A stretch of DNA of 64,000 bases from Candidatus Sulfopaludibacter sp. SbA3. GTDB lineage: Bacteria; Acidobacteriota; Terriglobia; Bryobacterales; Bryobacteraceae. Numbering within the stretch: position 1 is the first letter of the stretch; every line of letters begins with the position of its first letter. The notes beneath the pieces are model-generated. The model was not told where the DNA came from. It did not search any database and was given only the letters and a program-made list of their open reading frames with translations. This document shows positions 5,271-56,211 of the stretch, one piece after another. The position numbers and the translations under genes are program-made. The stretch covers positions 1 through 64,000 of the forward strand of contig CAMDED010000007.1 of the NCBI GenBank assembly GCA_945893365.1, given 5' to 3'.

Positions 5271-7134
5271 GCAGCGCCTGAGCCGCTTCGCGGAAAAATT
5301 CGCCGAGCGCCTCAAGCGACTTCGCGCTCAAGTCTTTCACCGCCAGCCTCACTACCGGACGGCCTTTCTCCGAAAGAGCGAGCGTGGTGGCCAGAAATTG
5401 CGCCAGATGATAGTCCGCGCTATAGCCCGCGGCCGGAAGGCGATCCTGTTTTTCCGAGACCAGCACAGTTGTGAAACACTTCCCGTGCCCGATGATCATT
5501 TCATGATAGGAATGATTCATCGCGGGACCTTCGTATACATCCGCGGGCATCTTAAGCCGAGTGCGAAACAACGACTCCGCGGCCCGGTCCATCACGCCGC
5601 GAACGGCGCGTCCGGATGGGGAATAGCGCATGTCTCCGAAGAAGGTAAGTTCTCCATACTCCACCTGGCGTTCCGCTGCCAGTTGCTTCAGGAAACCGGC
5701 GTAAATCGCGGGAGCCTCGCCCTTCGCCGCCGGCCCTTTCAACTGGTCGTAGTAGAGCGTCACCGTCTTCTTCCACACGGCCTTGCGCGGCGTTTCATGC
5801 ATCTTCTTCCAGACCTTGGCGCCGCCAAGCGAACCCGCTTTCGCCGCTTGCGCAAACAACTTGTTTGTGATCGCTTTATAGAGTTCCACGGAGGGCTGCG
5901 TCACGAAGTTCATATTTCGCAGATAGCCAAGGCCGCACACCACGTAATGCACGAACTGCATGTATCGAGAAAGCGCGTCGCCCGCGCCCATCTTGACCAG
6001 CGCGCACGGATAGCCGTGCCTCCGCATGGCCGCGAAAGCCGCTGTTTCGGAGGACTTCACCCCGTCATTCTGAACGGAAAGGAATACGCGGCCCGAGTCC
6101 GAAGGCTCGCGGTAATTGGACAGCTTCGGCCGCTCCCCAATCACAATCTTCAAGCCGAGGTCTTCGCTTTTTCCCAGACTCTCTTCAAAATCCTGCTTGG
6201 TCCAGATGCCCGCCGAGGCAAACGCTTTCGGGAGCAGGAGCGTTACTTTGTCGCGGCCCGCTTCCCCTTGCGCGTCAAGGAACGCAGAGAGCTTCCAAGC
6301 CGCATGAACCTCGTCGTCGCTGAGATTCGTGCCGTGAATCCACCGTTTCAGGTCCACACCCGCGAGCGCCAATGGGTACAAGCTTCCCCGCGTTAGCGGC
6401 CCACTGTGGCGTCCCGCCGTCGAGTTGCCGCCGTCAAGCTGTAGCGGGACCATGCGGTACCCGCGCGGCCCTGCGAATTTATCGAGCAGCGACCCGGGCA
6501 AGGTCATGTAAAGAAAGTTTGGCCGGGCGTCGATCTTATACTTCCTGTACAGGGCGGACAAGTTCTCCAGATTGACAACCGGCTCGTAGGACGTCATGCC
6601 CATCGCCATCCCCACCACGAGCGTCGCGCGCAGCACCATCGGCAGCGGCAGGCCGGAGCGGTGCGTCATGTCGTCGAGGATGGATTTCAGTTTCGCCGGA
6701 TCGGTTGAATCAAGCGCGTAAAATCGTGGACCGCCCTTCAGCAGCCCAGCGGCGTTGTACATCGACTTATCTTCGATCGAGCCTCCCATACCGGCCCAGA
6801 TCAGGAACCGCAGTTTCGCGCCGTGCGTTTCACGAATTGCGGCGCGAATCGACTCCACCTCCTTCTCCACCACGCCGGCCCATTCGGGATGCTCCTTCGC
6901 CTGCCACGCAAGGTTCAGCACACCATATGAATTCTTCGTGACCGCGCCCGCGGCGTCAATCTCAGTGCCGATTCGGACCAGTGGATCGGCCGCCGCATCT
7001 AGAGCGGTAAGCCCGTCGCGGCGGGACAGGGCGTCGATCTCGTGCAGACGGTGAAGGACATTCTCTTGCGAAAAACGGGCAAAGCGAGAGGCCGACGCCG
7101 CCGAACAAGCGTCGTTGTAAAGGGAAGTTAACAC
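5266..7134 (-). CDS. Glucose-6-phosphate isomerase-like protein (SIS fold)
   Basis: About 622 residues from a GTG at 7134. The protein contains two sugar-isomerase regions: LIWAGMGGSIEDKSMYN followed by ALDSTDPAKLKSIL, which is the phosphosugar-binding SIS part, and a second half with LPKAFASAGIWTKQDFEESL and KMGAGDALSRYMQFVHY. This fits the GPI family, which interconverts glucose-6-P and fructose-6-P, but it is longer than the usual 450-550 residues, so exact substrate use is uncertain. Upstream ATGs would overlap the divergent lipoprotein gene and add non-conserved sequence, so I prefer the GTG. It is the first gene of the leftward operon with rph and rdgB. Confidence 0.7.
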   Translation of the reverse strand: MLTSLYNDACSAASASRFARFSQENVLHRLHEIDALSRRDGLTALDAAADPLVRIGTEIDAAGAVTKNSYGVLNLAWQAKEHPEWAGVVEKEVESIRAAIRETHGAKLRFLIWAGMGGSIEDKSMYNAAGLLKGGPRFYALDSTDPAKLKSILDDMTHRSGLPLPMVLRATLVVGMAMGMTSYEPVVNLENLSALYRKYKIDARPNFLYMTLPGSLLDKFAGPRGYRMVPLQLDGGNSTAGRHSGPLTRGSLYPLALAGVDLKRWIHGTNLSDDEVHAAWKLSAFLDAQGEAGRDKVTLLLPKAFASAGIWTKQDFEESLGKSEDLGLKIVIGERPKLSNYREPSDSGRVFLSVQNDGVKSSETAAFAAMRRHGYPCALVKMGAGDALSRYMQFVHYVVCGLGYLRNMNFVTQPSVELYKAITNKLFAQAAKAGSLGGAKVWKKMHETPRKAVWKKTVTLYYDQLKGPAAKGEAPAIYAGFLKQLAAERQVEYGELTFFGDMRYSPSGRAVRGVMDRAAESLFRTRLKMPADVYEGPAMNHSYHEMIIGHGKCFTTVLVSEKQDRLPAAGYSADYHLAQFLATTLALSEKGRPVVRLAVKDLSAKSLEALGEFFREAAQALR

Positions 7135-8521: not shown

Positions 8522-9740
8522 CTATGACGCGTCGCGCCGCAGATCGAGCGGCGTGATCTCGTTGGCCTGAACATCCTCGAATTGCAGCCCGCGATCGCGC
8601 GGAGGCCGCCGCGATTGAGCGTTGGCGAGAATGTCACGCTATCACAAGAAGTACGAGGAGCAGGAATCCGAAACGCGTCCGTTCCCGCATGGCGTAGTAC
8701 TCGAATTGCGTTCCGGCGTCGGTGGCGAAGAGAAACAGCGCCCCGGCGGCTCCCAGCTTACGCGTCAGATCGGCCTTGCCCGGCAGGTACCCGCAAGTGA
8801 AAGGGATTTTGCGAAAATCACGGATCGAGCGCTCCACCAGGATCATTCCCACGAGCCTCAGAACGGCGAGATGGGCTGCGGCGGAAGCGGGCCGCCAGAT
8901 GGCGAAATACAGGATCGCAGCGGCGATCCAGACGGGCGCGGCAGTCAGTCCATAGAGCGCTTTTCGCACGGCCATGAAGTACGCCCGTGGACTATCGACG
9001 GCGGTGACGCGAAAAACCCAGTTCGCCTTGAGCGTGGCCGGTAGCGCGAACACCGCGCGCGTGCCGATCACGGCGAAAAGCAGCAGAACGAATCCTGTCA
9101 CCATAAGCGGTTGATTGATCTCCCATAAGCGCGGCGTGACGTAGTTGCGGCGCGGTAGACGGAGAGAATGACCCGGTGCTGGCGGCTGCTTGCGATGGTG
9201 CGGGCGGCGAACAGAAAAATGGCATGGTCTCGAGAGCCCTGGGCAGCAGCTTCGCGACAAGGGGCGCGGCCAATCGGGTGCGCGGGCGCCACGCTCGCGG
9301 ATCGGCGTCCGGTTGTTCGGCGATCTGGCGCAGGGTACGGAAGTAGACCAGAGCATAGGTGGTCGCGGCCAGAAGTACGGCGAGGCACAAGGCCCACAGG
9401 GCGCGCACCGCCAACGGGCCGAAGACCGGGTGGACCGGGCCGTTCAGTTGCTGGAAAAGCCCAAGAAACCAGTACGAGGGAATCCAGCGAAGAAAGTGGC
9501 TGTTGCCTGGCGCGGTGACCGCGAGCTCTCTTGAGCCTGGCGTGAGGAGGAAGAGAACGAGAACCATGAAGAAGGCGGCCAGTTGCAGAAAACTCGAAGC
9601 GCGCAGAAACAGGCGGTATGGCAGCAATTGCGCCGCCGAACCGTGCAGTCCGAGCAACGCACAAAAAACGAAGACGCCGGCGGCCGCCGCGGTGATCCAG
9701 TAGGCGGCGAAGGACGAAGTTGGCGGCCCACCACCGCCGC
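8522..9740 (-). pseudogene. Multi-pass membrane protein (acidobacterial permease-like), frameshifted
   Basis: Coding sense is spread over three minus-strand frames that join in order. About 9735 to 9225 reads AYWITAAAAGVFVFCALL, then TYALVYFRTLRQIAEQP and LLPRALETMPF. About 9222 to 9140 continues in another frame as FAARTIASSRQHRVILSVY. From about 9150 to 8634 a third frame gives INQPLMVTGFVLLLFAVIGT, LKANWVFRVTAVDSPRAY and RKIPFTCGYLPGKADLTRKL. After a stop at 8634, RGLQFEDVQANEITPLDL to a stop at 8522 looks like the displaced C-terminus. This resembles large hypothetical permease-type proteins I associate with Acidobacteria; the beginning is not identifiable. At least two frameshifts and a small deletion make it non-functional unless they are sequencing errors. 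Confidence 0.7.
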
Positions 9741-9914
9741 GGCGGCGCGCTGCCGGTTGTGCAACGTGACGCGGGTATTCTTGGCATCGAGCCGGCAGCC
9801 GAGAGCGCGGCGGCTGGTCCGCATGTCGAGCGGCCGGCCAAACTCGACTTTCCGAAGTCGCGTCCGGCCGGTGTGACAAGAACGGCACGGATTCGCAACG
9901 GGTGCTTGTAGACG
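9741..9914. other. Unassigned spacer
   Basis: Between the recognisable beginning of the broken permease and the deacetylase stop I see no credible gene. On the minus strand one frame reads LDAKNTRVTLHNRQ, which may be residual coding sequence of an unknown gene, but it cannot be identified. Confidence 0.3.
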
Positions 9915-11468
9915 TCAGCCCTCGAAACGCAGCCACCCGCGAACGCGAACGGTCTCATCCGGGGCGCAGTCCGCGAGCACCGGGTCCGAGTGGATGCAAG
10001 GGCACAGCGCATTGCCCCACGTGCGGCCGCAGCGCTCCCATTCGGTGAGGATGCGCCGCCCGCCCGCCACCGCCTCCGCGCGCATCTTGCCGAAGGTTTT
10101 GTTTTCGGCCGTCTGCATCTGAAACCCGGCTGCTTCTTTCAGAAGCACGCAGATCTGCGTGCGCAGACCCGTCAGCTTTTCGGCGGTCCCATTTCGCAGC
10201 CAGAGTTCCATGTCGGCTCCCGACTCGGTTGGCCGGACTACCGCGCCGAAGGAAACCTTGTTCGGCAGTGTCCAGTCGGAAGCCAGACTGCCGTCGCCGC
10301 GACGCTCCCAGTCCTGGTTCTCGATCACGACATTGCGCTGATTCCAGAGGGTCGGAACGTGCGTGTGCGCAAGGAAGATGAGGCCGAGATTGCTGAAGAT
10401 GGCCTCCGGTACGTCGACCACGGCGAAGCCGCCGCCCGCCCACGGCGCGAAGACACTGGCCTTGGCGCCGCGCAGGGGATCGATCGCGCCATCGAGAAAT
10501 CCGATTCGCGGATGCCGCCCTCCCGGATAGGGAAGCACGCGCCCTTCAAGCGGTTCCGCCCCGGCGGCGTCGAATCCGTGGCGGCGATTGTTCGATGCCC
10601 AGTAACGCGGCTCTCTCAGATCTGCTTCTTCCTCAGGGGGCAGCCGCAGCTTGCCGTCTTTCGGTTGCGGGTGCCGTAGCTTGCGCACGGGGTCGTCCGG
10701 CGCCGCGCCCACGAATCGGGCAAGATCTCTCAACGCGAGCGTCTCGAAGCCCTGTGCCTTCAGATACGACATGTATTCCCGGAACCGCTCGGGCGGCGTA
10801 TGCACCCACGGATGCGCCGGATCGGGCACTCCGTGGAATTGCAGCACGGCAACTTTGCCCTCGCCCGCTTCCATCACAACCCGCTTGAAGTGATCCGATG
10901 TCCAATTCGGATACGCATCGCCCGTCGTCGGAATCAGGAGCGGGTGGTGTTTTTTCGGGTCGTAGGCCGCGCCCACGGCGATCTGTCCATAGGGCACTTC
11001 CGGCTGCGCTCCGCGCCGCGCGAATTTGTAGCCGCGCGCTTCGATCGCGGTCACCGCCTCCGGACCGAAACCGTTGCCGCTATAGGCGAAGCTCACGGGA
11101 ACGGGGACGCCCACTTTCTTCAGCTCACTCTCGACCAGGGCCAATTCGCCGTTCAGACGCGCAACGTTTCGCGGTTCCGCGAAGTTCGCATGCGTCCAGC
11201 TATGGTTGCCGATCTCGAAACCCATTTCGTGAATCTCGGCAATCTCGCGCCATGTCATGAATTGCGCGGCGTCCGGCATCCATCGATGTGTTACGAAAAA
11301 CGTGGCCCGAAAGCCCATCTCGCGCAGCAACGGGGCGACGAACGTGCGATGCGATTTCACCGCGTCGTCGAACGTGAGTACCACGAACTTCCGGCCCGTC
11401 TGCGCGGCCAGGGGCGCGCAGGCTGGAGTCGCACCGGCTATTGCTCCCATCCACTCTCGACGGTTCAT
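9915..11468 (-). CDS. Exported polysaccharide deacetylase family protein
   Basis: A 517-residue protein with a Tat-like signal MNRREWMGAIAGATPACAPL, then a NodB-type deacetylase domain at about residues 25-260: FVVLTFDDAVKSH (TFDD motif), FATFFVTH-like block, MGFEIGNHSWTH (HxxxH metal ligands) and a later VAVLQFHGVPDP. These enzymes remove N- or O-acetyl groups from glycans. A C-terminal region of about 250 residues, with ASVFAPWAGGGFAVVDVPEA and AHTHVPTLWNQR, is not part of the deacetylase and may bind the substrate. ATG 11468 is chosen because AAAGGGG lies about five bases upstream and it starts the signal peptide. Confidence 0.85.
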   Translation of the reverse strand: MNRREWMGAIAGATPACAPLAAQTGRKFVVLTFDDAVKSHRTFVAPLLREMGFRATFFVTHRWMPDAAQFMTWREIAEIHEMGFEIGNHSWTHANFAEPRNVARLNGELALVESELKKVGVPVPVSFAYSGNGFGPEAVTAIEARGYKFARRGAQPEVPYGQIAVGAAYDPKKHHPLLIPTTGDAYPNWTSDHFKRVVMEAGEGKVAVLQFHGVPDPAHPWVHTPPERFREYMSYLKAQGFETLALRDLARFVGAAPDDPVRKLRHPQPKDGKLRLPPEEEADLREPRYWASNNRRHGFDAAGAEPLEGRVLPYPGGRHPRIGFLDGAIDPLRGAKASVFAPWAGGGFAVVDVPEAIFSNLGLIFLAHTHVPTLWNQRNVVIENQDWERRGDGSLASDWTLPNKVSFGAVVRPTESGADMELWLRNGTAEKLTGLRTQICVLLKEAAGFQMQTAENKTFGKMRAEAVAGGRRILTEWERCGRTWGNALCPCIHSDPVLADCAPDETVRVRGWLRFEG

Positions 11469-48429: not shown

Positions 48430-48780
48430 TCTGCCCTCCTTAAATGCAATGTAGTGTAGAAAAGTGACGTATTGTTGAACAGTCGATCGCAGTGACGGGG
48501 GCGGCGGCTCCGGATGCCGAATAAACCAACACGGGACCTCCAGCTTTCGCGTGGACGGCCGGCCGGGAATTGCGCCAGCGTCGATTCGCATGGTACCACA
48601 CCTCCCGGCACGGTTGCGTCACGAGAATCATCACCGGGTATCACACGAGGCTTTCCTTCCGGCAATAGCACGGAGTTCATGGACGGCAGGGCCGACGGCC
48701 CGCTGTAGGAACTGCCGATCGGGCAAACCGGTTGGAATATACTTCTCCGGGGCGGTATGATGGCTCGACAAGGAGTGTTT
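48430..48780. other. Intergenic control region between divergent genes
   Basis: About 350 bases separate the divergent Oar-receptor and aminotransferase starts. Both starts have strong ribosome-binding sites (AAGGAGG and AAGGAG). No credible coding frame is seen. TGGAATATACTTC at about 48733 could hold the -10 of the aminotransferase promoter. No operator repeat stood out. Confidence 0.4.
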
Positions 48781-49908
48781 ATGAGTACAACCCGCGGAAT
48801 CTCACGTCGCGGCTTTGCAGCAGCCATCGGCTCGATGGCCGGATCGCGCATGCTTTCCGAAATGGCCTACGCCCAGCGTGCCGCCGTGCCCGGCGCTTTG
48901 GCAGAGGATATGGTTTGGCTCAACGCAAACGAGAATCCCGCGGGACCGCCAAAAGCAGCCATCGAGGCGATGATCAAAATCCTGCCCGATTCCGGCCGTT
49001 ACCACTATCAGGAATACGGGGCCTTTTATGCCGCGGTCGCGAAGAGCGAAGACTTGGCTCCGGAGCAGGTATTGATCGGCGCCGGATCGAGCGAAGTGTT
49101 GCACGCGGCCGTCGACGCCTTCACCTCGCCCACGCGTCCATTGATCGCCATCTCGCCCACCTACGAGGGGCCGATCGACGTGGCGCAGGCGCTGGGACGG
49201 AAAGTGATTCGCGTACCGCTCACTTCCGCTTACGGCGCCGACGTCAAGCGTCTGGTCGAAGAGGCGGGCACCGCGGGCGGCGGGCTCATCTACCTCTGCA
49301 ACCCGAATAATCCCACGGCGTCCGTGACGCCAAAGGCGGATATCGGCTATCTGGTTTCGAACCTTCCGCCCAACACGATTGCTTTGATCGACGAAGCCTA
49401 TCATCACTTCGCCGAAACGCCCGAGATGGAGAGCGCGCTTGCCTATGTCAGGCGGGACAAGAACGTGATCGTCTCGCGAACGTTCTCGAAAATCTACGGA
49501 ATGGCCGGTCTGCGCGCGGGATACGTTTGCGCCCGTCCGGATCTTATCAATCAGATGTCGCCATTCCGCAACAACGTCATCTCGATCGTCGCGGTGCGCG
49601 CCGTTCTGGCGGCTCTTGCCGACGCGCCCAACTTTATTCCCGAGCGGCGCGCGAAACTGCTCAAGACCCGCCAGGAGCTCTGCCGGTGGCTTGAGGCGAA
49701 GAACCTTCCCTATATTGAATCGCACGCGAACTTCCTGATGATCGACCTCGGCCGCGAGGCCAAGCCCGTCATTGCCGCGCTGCCGCTGAAAGGCGTCGCC
49801 GTCGGCCGTCCGTTCCCGCCGCTCACCAACATGATGCGCGTCTCAATCGGAACGGACCAGGAGATGGCTCGTTTTCGCGAAGTCTTTTGGAGTGTATATT
49901 CGGCATGA
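48781..49908 (+). CDS. Tat-exported class I/II aminotransferase (HisC-like)
   Basis: 375 residues with AAGGAG six bases before the ATG. It opens with STTRGISRRGFAAAIGSMAG, a twin-arginine signal (SRRGF), followed by a complete fold-type I aminotransferase: VWLNANENPAGPPKAAIEAM, YHYQEYGAFYAAVAKSED, LIGAGSSEVLHAAVDAF, IYLCNPNNPT, LIDEAYHHF and the PLP lysine in SRTFSKIYGMAGLRAGYVCA. The motif pattern is that of histidinol-phosphate aminotransferases, but a periplasmic location excludes histidine biosynthesis. The ATG of the exported RidA protein overlaps its stop by four bases. The substrate is unknown. Confidence 0.88.
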   Translation: MSTTRGISRRGFAAAIGSMAGSRMLSEMAYAQRAAVPGALAEDMVWLNANENPAGPPKAAIEAMIKILPDSGRYHYQEYGAFYAAVAKSEDLAPEQVLIGAGSSEVLHAAVDAFTSPTRPLIAISPTYEGPIDVAQALGRKVIRVPLTSAYGADVKRLVEEAGTAGGGLIYLCNPNNPTASVTPKADIGYLVSNLPPNTIALIDEAYHHFAETPEMESALAYVRRDKNVIVSRTFSKIYGMAGLRAGYVCARPDLINQMSPFRNNVISIVAVRAVLAALADAPNFIPERRAKLLKTRQELCRWLEAKNLPYIESHANFLMIDLGREAKPVIAALPLKGVAVGRPFPPLTNMMRVSIGTDQEMARFREVFWSVYSA

Positions 49909-51137
49909 AAATAACGGCTTTGTGTTTGACGGTATTCGCGGCCATCGCACTCTTGGCGCAGGATCTCCCTCGTCACGAACGTATATTGGTATTCCCGCCC
50001 GGCGCGAAGCCGGCGGGGCCGTACAGCCCCGGTATTATCGCCGGCGATTTTCTGTACGTAGCCGGTCAGGGATCCCGCGGCGCGTCGGGACAAATTCCCG
50101 CCGGTTTCGAAGCGCAAGCGCGGCAGTGCCTCGATAGAGTCAAAGCCATCGTAACCGAGGCGAAGCTCACGATGGAGCACGTTGTCTACATCCAGGTCTA
50201 TCTGGAAAACACGGCGAACTACGACGTGATGACTAAGGTGCTGGGCGAGTATTTCCCCAAGACGCCACCGGCCCGCGCCACGCTTGGGGTCTATAAGATA
50301 CCCATTGACGATTCGATCGAGATCAGCGCCGTTGCGGTTCGAAATCTCGACATGAAGAAGCCCGTGGCGCCCGCCGGATACAAGTCGCCCGGCCCGATCA
50401 CGCCCGGAATCCTGGCGGGAGACCGCCTGTATCTCTCCGGCTTTCTCGGTCGCGACCCCGTCACGGGCACGATTCCAGCCGACCCGGAAGCCCAGGTTCA
50501 ACTCGCGCTGAACCGGATGAAGGAGACGCTCGCCGCCGCGGGCATGGATTTCAGCAACATGGTCTTCATCAACCCCTACCTGACGAAGGACATGCCGGCG
50601 AACGTGATGAACAGGGTTTACGCAAAGCATTTCGAATGGGGAAACACGCCCGCGCGCGCGACCATCCCTGTGAACGCGCTGCCCTTTGGCGCGAACATCG
50701 AGTTCACCGGCGTGGCGATCCGGGACCGTTCAGATCGCGGCGCGGTGCGGCCGAAGAACATGCCGCCGAGTCCCACGGCGAGTCCTTGCGTGCTGGCCGG
50801 CGACACGCTCTATTGCTCGGCGAAGTCGGGGTTCATTCCCGGCCCGAATGGCGGTATCTACGCCGCGGACGTGGAGAATCAGATTCGCCAGACGATGCGC
50901 AATCTGCTCGACGGTCTGGAAGAAGCCGGCCTCGATTTCTCGCATGTGGTCGCGAGTAGTATTTACCTCGACAATCTGGACGATTTCGCGAAGATGAACG
51001 GCGTCTACGGAAAGTACTTCACGCGGTCCCCGCCCACGCGAATGACGGTTGCGCCGCTCCCTCCCGTTAGCCGGACACCGGGCGCGCAGGGGCACTGGCC
51101 GAAACTCGAAGAAATCTCAATCATCGCCGTGAAGTAG
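49905..51137 (+). CDS. Exported protein with three RidA domains
   Basis: 410 residues with a signal peptide MKITALCLTVFAAIALLAQD. Three tandem RidA/YjgF-like domains follow, at about residues 20-135, 145-265 and 270-405, each with GxxYxxG-like start and the Arg-containing loop of the active cleft: TPPARATLGVYKIP, NTPARATIPVNALP and SPPTRMTVAPLPP. RidA proteins hydrolyse reactive imine/enamine intermediates released by PLP enzymes. Here the translated overlap with a Tat-exported aminotransferase strongly suggests the pair works together outside the cytoplasm. All three domains keep the Arg, so none looks clearly dead. Confidence 0.9.
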   Translation: MKITALCLTVFAAIALLAQDLPRHERILVFPPGAKPAGPYSPGIIAGDFLYVAGQGSRGASGQIPAGFEAQARQCLDRVKAIVTEAKLTMEHVVYIQVYLENTANYDVMTKVLGEYFPKTPPARATLGVYKIPIDDSIEISAVAVRNLDMKKPVAPAGYKSPGPITPGILAGDRLYLSGFLGRDPVTGTIPADPEAQVQLALNRMKETLAAAGMDFSNMVFINPYLTKDMPANVMNRVYAKHFEWGNTPARATIPVNALPFGANIEFTGVAIRDRSDRGAVRPKNMPPSPTASPCVLAGDTLYCSAKSGFIPGPNGGIYAADVENQIRQTMRNLLDGLEEAGLDFSHVVASSIYLDNLDDFAKMNGVYGKYFTRSPPTRMTVAPLPPVSRTPGAQGHWPKLEEISIIAVK

Positions 51138-52589: not shown

Positions 52590-53206
52590 TTCAATTACGA
52601 TTGTATCGGCGGGTTGGCGATCCACGGAATAGAACAAAGGTCCCGATCCGCAGGTACGGGAGAAATAGGTGGATGGAGGACCAAGGGCTTAAGTACGTAG
52701 CTGCGCAGCCGGGAACGTGGCCCTTCGGCTTAATATGGACGATACCGCCGTACTTGGTAACTCAGACTTCCGTAGAGCCGGTATTAACAAGTAAGTCGTT
52801 GATTCTCACCATCGACCTGACCGAATGCGAGAAGAGCCGCTCCGAGGCCACGTCGACTCGAAGCTCAGGGCGGAAGTTACGGGTCCGCGGAGTGCACAGG
52901 TTGGAGATCATCGATACCAGCGGCGAATCGACCATTCTGAATAACGGTCAAGCGCCCTCGCTTCGGTGGCGGCCGGCGAAAACGAAGTTATCGGGGAACG
53001 GCGGTTGGCCAAGTAGTCCCGCGCGGAGTCGGATTCACCTCACGAGAATCACTTGGCCGTGTAACGGTCTGCGCGAACTAGTGCCAAGCGCGCTCTTCCT
53101 GAATCCCGGTTGAAAAGGGGCGATTCACACGTCCCGCCGACTGGGCTTGCTGTAACGGCAGATGGCGTGCTGCCGGCCTGCTCCGCCCGGCGGTACAATA
53201 ACGCCC
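52590..53206. other. Large intergenic stretch, no gene recognised
   Basis: About 600 bases separate the divergent cyclase and class III aminotransferase starts. A 170-codon plus-strand frame at 52601-53113 exists, but it has no recognisable motif, no ribosome-binding site and a composition unlike neighbouring proteins, so I do not count it. The stretch is AT-richer than its flanks and may be remnant DNA. The TACAAT at 53194-53199 is the likely promoter of the aminotransferase. Confidence 0.4.
53194..53199 (+). promoter_or_regulatory. -10-like box TACAAT before the class III aminotransferase
   Basis: TACAAT, seven bases (AACGCCC), ATG at 53207, and no Shine-Dalgarno sequence. It is one of the clearest leaderless-type starts in the window and fixes the start against the longer frame. 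Confidence 0.5.
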
Positions 53207-54556
53207 ATGGAACAAACGGCGATCACCTCAAGCAGGGAACTCGATCTGGAGCACCTCTGGCACGGCAACCTTCAGCACCATGGCCTCGACCGGCGGCCGC
53301 CGCTTGAGGTTACAGGCGCGCACGGATGTTGGATTTGGGACGCGGATGGCCGCCGCTACCTCGACGGCATGGCTGGCCTGTGGTGCGTCAATGTAGGCTA
53401 CGGCAGACAGAAAATCGTCGACGCGGTGGCGGCGCAGATGACGCAAATGCCGTACTATCCCCTGACGCAATCTCACGGTCCGGGCGCGCGTTTAGCGGCG
53501 CGTCTGGCGGGGCTGCTGCCCGGCGAACTGAACCGCGTCTACTTTTTGAACAGCGGGTCGGAGGCGGTCGAGACGGCGCTCAAGATCGCCCGCCAAGCCA
53601 GCCGCCGCCTGCACCCCGGAGAGAACCGGTTCAAGATCATTTCGCGCTATCGGGCCTATCACGGGTTTACCATGGGCGCGATGTCGGCTACCGGTCAGGC
53701 CTTTCGCAAGCGCGACTTCGAGCCGCTCGTGCCCGGCTTCTTTCACGTCGTGCCGCCCGACCCTTATCATTGCGATTTCTGCGCGAAGGAACCCGGCTGC
53801 ACACTGACCTGCGCCGACGAGTTCGACCGGGTGATCCGCATGGAAGGACCCGATACCGTTGCGGCGATCATCATGGAACCCGTCATCGGCGGAGGCGGCG
53901 TGCTGCCCGCGCCCGAAGGCTACATTCGGCGCGTCCGCGAAATCTGCGACCGCTACGGCGTGCTGCTGATTCTGGACGAAGTGATTACGGGTTTTGGGAG
54001 AACGGGAAAATTATTCGGATTCGAGCATTCCGGCGTCACGCCCGATATCGCCACGTTTGCCAAGGGATTGACGTCGGCGTATCTGCCCTTGGCCGCGACA
54101 GTCGCCACAGGCCGGGTCTTCCAGGCGTTCTCGAGCGCGGAGGACGACACCGCGAAGTTCACTCAAGTTACCACCTTTGGTGGGCATCCGTGCTCCTGCG
54201 CCGCCGGGCTCGCGAACCTGGACATCCTCACGGAGGAACGGCTCTGGGAGAACTCCGCTCAGGTTGGCGCTTACTTGAAAAACAGGTTGATCGAGCTAGG
54301 CGCGCCGTCGATCGGCGAAGTCCGAGGGATGGGCCTCCTCATCGGCATCGAGATGGTGGAGGCGGGTACCCGGACGCCCATGCGGGAGTCGCGCGTGATT
54401 TCGATTCAACGCGCGATTCGCGACCGCGGCGTGATCGTGGGGAGGAATAACGACACCGCGCCCGGCCTCTGCAATACGCTCACGATCTCGCCGCCGCTGA
54501 CGCTCACGGAGGGCGAGGCGGATATCATCGTCGAAGCGATTTCCGCTTCGTTATGA
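53207..54556 (+). CDS. Class III (omega) aminotransferase
   Basis: 449 residues. PLP-fold type I class III features: DADGRRYLDGMAGLWCVNVG, LNSGSEAVETALKIARQ, YHGFTMGAMSATG, the EP-x-IGGGG phosphate region (MEPVIGGGGVLPAP), ILDEVITGFGRTGKLFGFEH, and the PLP lysine in FAKGLTSAYLPL followed by FGGHPCSCAAGLANLD. It probably transfers an amino group from an omega-amino donor (beta-alanine, putrescine or similar) to pyruvate or 2-oxoglutarate. A Cys-rich insert YHCDFCAKEPGCTLTC (about residues 187-202) is unusual and could bind metal. Start chosen by the TACAAT box. Confidence 0.93.
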   Translation: MEQTAITSSRELDLEHLWHGNLQHHGLDRRPPLEVTGAHGCWIWDADGRRYLDGMAGLWCVNVGYGRQKIVDAVAAQMTQMPYYPLTQSHGPGARLAARLAGLLPGELNRVYFLNSGSEAVETALKIARQASRRLHPGENRFKIISRYRAYHGFTMGAMSATGQAFRKRDFEPLVPGFFHVVPPDPYHCDFCAKEPGCTLTCADEFDRVIRMEGPDTVAAIIMEPVIGGGGVLPAPEGYIRRVREICDRYGVLLILDEVITGFGRTGKLFGFEHSGVTPDIATFAKGLTSAYLPLAATVATGRVFQAFSSAEDDTAKFTQVTTFGGHPCSCAAGLANLDILTEERLWENSAQVGAYLKNRLIELGAPSIGEVRGMGLLIGIEMVEAGTRTPMRESRVISIQRAIRDRGVIVGRNNDTAPGLCNTLTISPPLTLTEGEADIIVEAISASL

Positions 54557-54589: not shown

Positions 54590-54955
54590 TCACTCAATTT
54601 CCACGAGTGTCGTGCGGTAGGGCTTCGTTCCCAGATTGATCAACTGCGGGGCGTCCTCGCCCTTGTCGTGCCAGATGACGTCGCCGGACTTCCGCTCGCG
54701 AATCGTCTTCTCGCCCGTGGCTGAGTCCTTCCTCTCGTAGCGGCAATCGTCCATGAACACAATCACCTGGTCCGTTCGCCGGATATGCCGTTCCCGCGGC
54801 ACGCCGGGCGCGTAGACCATCTCGGAAACTCTTACGCGTTTGTTCTGCAGTTTCACCGTAGGCGCGGAAGGCGTTTGCGCCAGGCCGAGCCCCCACATCG
54901 CCGCCACCGTAAGCGCCGAGCTGATGGCCGCCGTAAGAACGATCGTCTTTCTCAT
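54590..54955 (-). CDS. Exported cupin-like small protein
   Basis: 121 residues with a signal MRKTIVLTAAISSALTVAAM and a domain of about 95 residues: VSEMVYAPGVPRERHIRRTD and QVIVFMDDCRYERKDSATGE, SGDVIWHDKGEDAPQLINLG. This looks like a single-domain beta-barrel cupin, with His/Glu/Asp positioned as possible metal ligands (RERHIRRTD, VIWHDKGE). It is the last gene of a four-gene operon and its ATG overlaps the transporter stop by four bases. A role in handling the sugar taken up is inferred from context only. Confidence 0.75.
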   Translation of the reverse strand: MRKTIVLTAAISSALTVAAMWGLGLAQTPSAPTVKLQNKRVRVSEMVYAPGVPRERHIRRTDQVIVFMDDCRYERKDSATGEKTIRERKSGDVIWHDKGEDAPQLINLGTKPYRTTLVEIE

Positions 54956-56211
54956 GCCGGTAACTCCTTCGGAGCGTATTTCTCGCGCACCAGCAACAGG
55001 TATGCCGCGATTCCAATAAACAGGAACACCCAGATGGCCTGCATGGGCGCTTCATAGCTGCCGGTTTTTTCAATCAGCCAGCCCGTGAGAATCGGCGCCA
55101 CAATGCCGGGCAGGTTCGCGGCGCAATTCTGAATTCCGACGATCCGTCCAATCGCTCCGCCGGGGATCAGCGTCTGGGTCAACGCCCAATAGTTCGCCGT
55201 CGCCAAACCAAGCCCGGTGAGCGAAAACACGGCAAAGAATAGCGCCACGGGAACCGAATCGGAGAGCGCGCCAAACACCTCGGTCGAAGCCATCACGAAG
55301 CCCGCGATCGTGAACGCCTTGCGCACGGTCACGGGGTTCGCGCCGCGCGAGATGATGCGGTCGGCAGCCCAGCCCGCGACCGCCGCCATGGTCGCCATGC
55401 CGCCGAAGCTGAAGAACGTGTAGAGGCCCATCGAGTTCAGCGACAATCCGCGGCGTTCCACGAAGTATGCGGGCATCCACGTCATGCAGAAGTAGACGAA
55501 ATACATGTAGGAGAACGTGCCGATGATCGTCCCCCAGATTACGGGGCTCGCCATCAGCCGGCCAAACGGAACGGAGACCGCGTTCGGTTTCTTCTCCGCG
55601 CGCTCGCGCTGCCGGTCGTCGTTGCCCACGAGCGTAGTCCAGGGAATCAGCCAGAGCAGGCACCCCAGCCCGAGCACGAGAAACATGATCCGCCAATCGT
55701 ACTTCGCGATCAGCCACGCGGCTATGGGCGCTCCGATAGCCGGGCCGATCTTGGTGCCGGTCATGTACAGGCCGACGGCAAATCCGCGTTCCTTCTCGGC
55801 GAAATGGAATCGGATCCAGCGCATGCTCGCCGGCGTTACGACGGACTCGCCTACGCCCAACAGGAACCGCAGCGCGAACAACTGCGAGAACGAGTTCGCC
55901 ATCGCCGTCCCCGCGGACACCAGGCTCCAGAACAGGAAGCCGATCGTGTAGGGCGTCTTGACGCCGTAGCGGTCGACCAGCCATCCCGCCGGAATCTGAA
56001 GAAATGCGTACGACCAAAAGAACGCGGAATTCAGCGCTCCGCGGTCGCGGTCCGTCAGGTTGAAGAACTGCTTGAACTCCGGCACCGCGAGTGCGACGGA
56101 AATATTGGACCGGTCCACGTACGCGATGATGACGCCGAGACTAAGCAAAGCGACGATCCACCAGCGGCCCTTTTTGGAAACGGTTTCCGCGGCGGCAGCG
56201 AGCGTGCTCAT
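54952..56211 (-). CDS. MFS transporter, anion:cation (sugar-acid) type
   Basis: 419 residues with 12 hydrophobic helices. The family marks are the N-terminal IAYVDRSNISVALAVPEF, the loop-2/3 GWLVDRYGVKTPYTIGFLFW, LLGVGESVVTPASMRWIRFH and the second-half MGLYTFFSFGGMATMAAVAG. The set fits the ACS family (hexuronates, glucarate, galactonate). Both its start and its stop overlap neighbours by four bases. It is the presumed importer for the substrate processed by the DUF1080 and Gfo/Idh proteins. Confidence 0.9.
   Translation of the reverse strand: MSTLAAAAETVSKKGRWWIVALLSLGVIIAYVDRSNISVALAVPEFKQFFNLTDRDRGALNSAFFWSYAFLQIPAGWLVDRYGVKTPYTIGFLFWSLVSAGTAMANSFSQLFALRFLLGVGESVVTPASMRWIRFHFAEKERGFAVGLYMTGTKIGPAIGAPIAAWLIAKYDWRIMFLVLGLGCLLWLIPWTTLVGNDDRQRERAEKKPNAVSVPFGRLMASPVIWGTIIGTFSYMYFVYFCMTWMPAYFVERRGLSLNSMGLYTFFSFGGMATMAAVAGWAADRIISRGANPVTVRKAFTIAGFVMASTEVFGALSDSVPVALFFAVFSLTGLGLATANYWALTQTLIPGGAIGRIVGIQNCAANLPGIVAPILTGWLIEKTGSYEAPMQAIWVFLFIGIAAYLLLVREKYAPKELPA

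Follow-up and report, generated by a model that had tools for sequence, protein, structure and literature searches.

A predicted Tat-exported aminotransferase encoded in overlap with a signal-peptide-bearing triple RidA protein in Acidobacteriota

Introduction

Rid proteins have mostly been studied as intracellular guards of pyridoxal phosphate (PLP) enzymes, as presented in the available text of PMC4433059. The locus described here raises the question of whether a PLP enzyme and a RidA protein that both carry export-type N-termini could work together outside the cytoplasm. It lies in a stretch of 64,000 nucleotides from Candidatus Sulfopaludibacter sp. SbA3, hereafter the window, for which an initial annotation had proposed a periplasmic PLP pathway with built-in imine clean-up, of a kind not described before.

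The gene pair of the window

Both open reading frames are present on the forward strand (Table 1), and the 4-base ATGA overlap reported between them was confirmed, the TGA stop of the aminotransferase gene (49906-49908) overlapping the ATG of the triple RidA (3x-RidA) gene at 49905. An alternative ATG start of the aminotransferase, at 48757, also retains the signal. The pair is flanked upstream by the gene of an OMP_b-brl_4 outer-membrane barrel and downstream by that of a metallo-beta-lactamase-fold protein; since both flanking genes point the opposite way, the operon at this locus consists of two genes. Further downstream, 2 to 5 kb from the pair, a class III aminotransferase gene (53162-54556) and an MFS transporter gene (54952-56211) were also seen.

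Table 1. Coordinates of the gene pair and of its predicted features in the window.
Feature	Position	Strand	Remarks
Class I/II aminotransferase, HisC-like, predicted Tat signal	48781..49908	+	Nearest NCBIfam models are PRK09105 and PtaA, each scoring under its cut-off
Twin-arginine signal region ISRRGF...AYA	48781..48873	+	End read by eye, not predicted; RR in 10/10 complete N-termini
ATGA stop/start overlap (translational coupling)	49905..49908	+	-4 overlap also in L081, L084, L099
3x-RidA with signal peptide	49905..51137	+	Three Ribonuc_L-PSP stretches, alignment, structure model
Sec-type signal region (MKITALCLTVFAAIALLA)	49905..49958	+	End read by eye; alignment
RidA domain 1, Arg124	50007..50339	+	Profile match, alignment
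RidA domain 2, Arg251	50397..50720	+	Profile match, alignment; Arg in 44/44
RidA domain 3, Arg379	50781..51050	+	Pfam match stops short of domain end

Properties of the two proteins

The first protein is, as initially annotated, a class I/II aminotransferase (Aminotran_1_2 in Pfam, 3e-48) with a twin-arginine motif. More precisely, SRRGF occupies residues 8-12; beyond it, the sequence was read as a stretch of weak hydrophobicity (Kyte-Doolittle value of about 0.9 across 12 residues) and then A-Y-A. The RR pair is found in 10/10 aligned aminotransferases with an intact N-terminus; the eleventh row of this alignment, L081, is cut by the chosen start and has SRRGF in its upstream stretch. A looser scan, in which truncated genes were kept and an RR anywhere in the region counted, some hits being spurious, detected the pair in 8/9 aminotransferases. 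TatC is encoded in this genome. K237, N174-T179, D204-Y207, and R353, which we take to be the PLP lysine of the SK motif, the NPNNPT and DEAY motifs, and the C-terminal Arg of class I/II PLP aminotransferases, are invariant in the 11 aligned proteins, and the structure model has a pLDDT of 78.8.

Against curated models, this protein reaches 355.7 bits with PRK09105 (NF006580; residues 6-373, signal region included; cut-off 444), 294.7 bits with PtaA (NF051461; residues 7-371 of 375, signal included; cut-off 500), and 226 bits with HisC (TIGR01141; cut-off 276.55). To judge from these profiles, it is close to Tat-exported HisC-like aminotransferases, yet below all three cut-offs. A strict PtaA equivalog was thereby ruled out by score. 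The HisC of histidine biosynthesis was ruled out as well, since the genome has a separate gene (C4:120681-121709) above the HisC cut-off, with 296 bits. Distant HisC-like aminotransferases were also seen beside a SulP-type permease at nine loci (L039, L041, L042, L044, L045, L046, L049, L051, and L057), most of them with RR starts; the Pfam check covered L045, the others being recognized by their similar starts, and L049 is cut.

The three tandem RidA domains and the own signal peptide attributed to the second protein were likewise found. Three Ribonuc_L-PSP (PF01042) stretches are present in one chain (3e-64 for the whole protein), the match to TIGR00004 (212 bits) lies above the cut-off of 106, and the N-terminus, which begins MKITALCLTVFAAIALLAQD, is hydrophobic and signal-peptide-like. 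A strong N-terminal hydrophobic stretch is shared by 40 of the 44 aligned 3x-RidA rows, and two of the four others (L108 and L117) have late starts. As annotated, all three domains of the window protein keep the active-site Arg (R124, R251, and R379), scored at what we take to be the R105-type position; across the 44 rows, a catalytic-type Arg occupies it in 40 (domain 1), 44 (domain 2), and 41 (domain 3). The AlphaFold model of the three-domain chain, computed as a single chain, has a pLDDT of 92.5 and a pTM of 0.91. In a PDB search by chain, the single domains match RidA structures with a target TM of about 0.9, and the best full-length matches are chorismatases, with a TM of about 0.5.

Recurrence of the pair and identity of the main partner

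A near-full-length RidA orthologue was detected in 17/40 relatives, with 45-88% identity (G006, whose RidA is in two pieces, is left out of the 17), and the aminotransferase adjoins RidA in three of the 40 (G002, G005, and G021). The search was extended to public RidA loci, taken as the best 80 of 153 from a contig scan; several are identical to contigs of the 40-relative set, and 79/80 are titled as Acidobacteriota groups, the exception being L089, titled Acidimicrobiia. Besides the window, a same-strand aminotransferase lies directly upstream of RidA in 8 of these best 80 of 153 loci, one of which, L083, holds only a 67-residue aminotransferase fragment at a contig end, and the 4-base overlap recurs in three of the eight (Table 1). 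The conservation of the adjacent pair in related genomes, on which the initial annotation had made its proposal depend, is thus found in these eight loci. By these counts, the strict aminotransferase-RidA pair is uncommon but recurrent. Among the seven aminotransferases of at least 55% identity, window included, three (G003, G012, and G018) have no adjoining Rid gene. Downstream of the pair, L082 encodes two proteins with RR starts, a rhamnonate-dehydratase relative and one of DHDPS fold; in L154, an S9 peptidase precedes the pair.

Across the best 80 of 153 loci, the commonest gene upstream of 3x-RidA encodes a relative of the DgaE-family ammonia-lyase, a PLP enzyme. A six-frame HMM tally within at most 3.5 kb assigned a DgaE-type partner to 38 of the 80 loci, an aminotransferase to 7, and neither to 35, with HMMs that were built from the same loci and that recognize both families rather than define them independently. 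The counted partner lies on the RidA strand in all 45 partner-bearing loci, and two of the 35 partnerless ones are cut by contig ends, L083 (aminotransferase) and L144 (DgaE). Neighbour genes were called by a hexamer-scored caller, and the six-frame tally needs no gene calling; an apparent 'DgaE' of L076 was discarded as an antisense gene-calling artefact. The gene at position -1 is a DgaE-type or aminotransferase gene in 42 of 80 cases (79 public loci and the window); among genes at least three places from RidA in these loci, the figure is 1/496, a background that is local and not genome-wide. Chance adjacency was ruled out by these two figures together with the shared strand. These position counts and the RidA tree mentioned below include an artefact row of L095 and omit L146, both loci being covered by the six-frame tally.

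Three of the DgaE-type partners were scanned with TIGR01437 and gave 146-155 bits over most of the model, missing the cut-off of 385, and one partner matches PDB entries 8t7j and 7lc0. An RR was found in 32/36 DgaE-type partners by the same loose scan, with its truncated genes and some spurious hits; the DgaE-type partners thus appear mostly to bear a Tat-type signal. Partner labels form clusters on a quickly made RidA tree yet change several times, at least 9 times for DgaE and 5 for the aminotransferase; the starred branches alone force 7 and 2, respectively. Since the loci are related by descent, the locus counts are not independent events. A phylum search returned a RidA match in 3/297 genomes, this genome among them, under a strict E-value and with 6 candidates scored per row shown, so that absence is weak evidence; in both other genomes (L210 and L211), a DgaE-type gene with an RR start adjoins RidA.

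DgaE-like lyases release enamines/imines, whereas the ordinary transaminase reaction releases no enamine, and the DgaE-type lyase therefore makes better chemical sense as a RidA partner. Of the periplasmic PLP pathway with clean-up that had been proposed, export and the imine role fit the data, but the main partner is a DgaE-type enzyme (38 of the best 80 of 153 loci) and the aminotransferase the less frequent one.

Other Rid and DgaE-type genes and their neighbourhoods

This genome holds 17 Rid domains in 11 genes, whose N-termini were read as export-type in seven cases, not so in three, and ambiguous in one. It also yields 13 DgaE-like matches, and 11/11 of those read carry an RR start; in the stretches fetched, only one of these 11 DgaE-type genes has a Rid neighbour, and ten have none. 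A second, divergent 3x-RidA with an export-type start (C188, L187:3058-5974) lies beside a divergently oriented DgaE-type gene with RR. In C60 (L188:2328-4475), a divergent triple Rid gene with a signal peptide was seen, followed by a KDG-kinase-like gene.

KDG-kinase-like genes, below cut-offs, adjoin Rid genes in both L087 and C60, and one strand of L100 (3667-11286) carries a Tat-type DgaE, EF_0837/PRK09237-type and other amidohydrolases, a 3x-RidA, an HpcH/HpaI-type aldolase, and an MFS-like protein. Because of L100, L082, L154, and the KDG-kinase neighbours, the neighbour genes suggest amino-acid or amino-sugar-acid use.

Several further neighbours were noted. In L089 (Pfam-checked), L094, L095, L098, L105, and L145, the gene immediately before that of triple RidA belongs to a cytochrome c family. 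Downstream of triple RidA, L098 encodes a protein with two Rid stretches in Pfam and a Tat-like start (9161-10222), L105 a protein of the same BLAST family (5702-6703), and L116 a flavin amine oxidase-type protein (9219-10688), a possible imine source.

Proposed role and alternative explanations

In the explanation that we prefer, and that we consider to have an even chance of being right, the two genes would form an exported unit in which a periplasmic PLP enzyme is served by dedicated imine hydrolysis, both export and activity being what we infer. The case is sequence-based: overlapping genes, signals on both proteins, conservation of both proteins, and the association of RidA with Tat-type PLP enzymes.

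The aminotransferase would load PLP in the cytoplasm and then cross folded via Tat, while the 3x-RidA would cross via Sec, fold outside the cytoplasm as a one-chain trimer, and there convert enamines/imines by hydrolysis into 2-oxo acids and ammonia. Imines may be supplied by the partner, through a lyase side activity, or by the organism's many Tat-signal DgaE-type enzymes; given these sources, RidA would both finish the DgaE-type reaction and shield exported PLP enzymes, a damaged cofactor presumably being hard to replace outside the cytoplasm. Since a plain transaminase releases no enamine, the window RidA would serve a lyase side activity or guard the aminotransferase against enamines produced by exported DgaE-type enzymes. 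DgaE would then be the source and the aminotransferase the likely victim, both making good neighbours for RidA, and the likely setting would be one with amino acids or amino-sugar acids as substrates. In this context, aspartate aminotransferase has been reported to fall victim to 2-aminoacrylate, according to the accessible part of PMC4433059. Against a clean-up unit speak the 35 of the best 80 of 153 loci where a partner is absent from view, two of them by contig ends, the ten of 11 DgaE-type genes of this genome and the three of seven close aminotransferases that lack a Rid neighbour, and the domain 1 or domain 3 Arg that is missing in some RidA relatives (4/44 and 3/44).

A rather unlikely alternative, which nevertheless keeps some weight, is that the two proteins merely share a catabolic context, both being exported for amino-acid or sugar-acid use without RidA acting on the imines of its neighbour; like the YjgF-fold chorismatases, RidA may have some other metabolite as its ligand or substrate. 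The remaining neighbours would fit (the cytochrome c family at 6 loci, the sugar-acid dehydratase relative, aldolase-types, the S9 peptidase, and amidohydrolases), and so would the chorismatases found as best full-length structural matches, at a TM of about 0.5. However, PLP enzymes are the commonest neighbour families, the domain 2 Arg is present in 44/44 rows, and the single domains match RidA structures at a target TM of about 0.9.

A PtaA-like tailoring role, with a secreted natural product as the periplasmic substrate of the aminotransferase and RidA as an accessory, is improbable. Such a role would agree with the PtaA score of 294.7 bits, for an alignment that spans almost the full length and takes in the signal region, and with the occurrence of PtaA in species without pyoverdine (PMC6206403, in the portion available), but the scores fall below the PtaA (500) and PRK09105 (444) cut-offs, and no siderophore or NRPS gene was noticed on reading the starts of the called ORFs, the family-library scan covering 8 window proteins. 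Finally, that the signals are non-functional and the pair acts in the cytoplasm is very improbable: the aminotransferase signal is weakly hydrophobic, as given above, but RR in 10/10 complete N-termini, TatC in the genome, the hydrophobic RidA start in 40/44 rows, three Rid paralogues of the same genome that lack such a start, and a PRK09105 match extending over the signal region all argue for export.

Beyond the window, and with chances that we place somewhat short of even, the exported unit with imine clean-up may be one instance of a wider arrangement in which Acidobacteriota run PLP enamine/imine chemistry broadly in the periplasm, with several exported DgaE-type lyases, an exported transaminase, and dedicated exported one-chain RidA trimers. 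These trimers would complete deamination and guard cofactors that could not be reloaded outside the cytoplasm. If true, the idea of Rid protection would extend to a bacterial extracytoplasmic PLP pathway. The conserved, signal-bearing one-chain Rid protein beside Tat-type PLP enzymes makes imine stress and PLP damage outside the cytoplasm testable, and hints at a possible route for acidobacterial use of amino acids or amino-sugar acids.

Comparison with known systems

The statement of the initial annotation that no periplasmic system of this kind had been described proved too strong, since PtaA/PvdN (PMC6206403) and LAAO/RidA pairs (PMC5053998, PMC10805672) are known, as the accessible parts of these papers indicate. 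PtaA and PvdN of Pseudomonas, two PLP enzymes that tailor pyoverdine, reach the periplasm through Tat (PMC6206403). The window aminotransferase resembles them as a folded PLP enzyme with a predicted Tat signal, the PtaA model spanning residues 7-371 of its 375; it differs in a score far under the PtaA cut-off, in that no pyoverdine context was noticed here, and in its RidA partner, which is not mentioned in the available text of PMC6206403.

LAAO/RidA systems come close from the side of RidA. In Gluconacetobacter, genes for cytochrome c and RidA cluster with that of an L-amino-acid oxidase predicted to carry a Tat signal, the location of this RidA not being stated in the accessible text (PMC5053998), and a periplasmic LAO1-LAO2/RIDA pair is described in Chlamydomonas (PMC5053998, PMC10805672, as far as available). 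They share with the window an imine-forming enzyme that is extracytoplasmic, or predicted to be so, together with a RidA gene partner, and the six cytochrome c-RidA loci recall the LAAO-cytochrome c-RidA cluster; on the evidence of the same text portions, however, the enzyme is a flavin oxidase in their case and a PLP enzyme in the window.

The 3x-RidA type (EF_0115) was named in 2015 by Niehaus and others and presumed to consist of covalently linked trimer units, and Rid genes cluster with those of aspartate aminotransferase and of 2-aminoacrylate-forming PLP enzymes, as given in the part available of PMC4433059. The window protein likewise has three RidA domains in one chain, but it bears a signal peptide and adjoins a Tat-type PLP enzyme; the terms 'signal peptide' and 'periplasm' have 0 occurrences in the main text of that paper. 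In the ong chitin-oxidation cluster, which comprises the OngB deacetylase, the OngC deaminase, the OngD RidA needed for growth, and KdgK (PMC9537276, in its accessible text), the combination of deacetylase, amino-sugar-acid deaminase, RidA, and KDG kinase recalls L100 and the KDG-kinase-like neighbours of L087 and C60. There, however, OngB and OngC are predicted cytoplasmic, and OngD has a single RidA domain, its role being called unknown in the same text. As to the DgaE family itself (D-glucosaminate-6-phosphate ammonia lyase, TIGR01437; PDB 7lc0, 8t7j), the partners match most of TIGR01437 and differ in their Tat-type signal and in scores below the curated cut-off of 385.

Taken together, exported PLP transaminases, extracytoplasmic oxidase-RidA pairs, and 3x-RidA proteins are known separately. 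What is apparently new is a signal-peptide 3x-RidA tied to Tat-type PLP enzymes: the open-access literature, among the matches listed and at the level of titles and abstract starts, did not show a pair of RidA and PLP enzyme that are both exported. That the same RidA pairs more often with a DgaE-type enzyme than with an aminotransferase points to extracytoplasmic imine clean-up.
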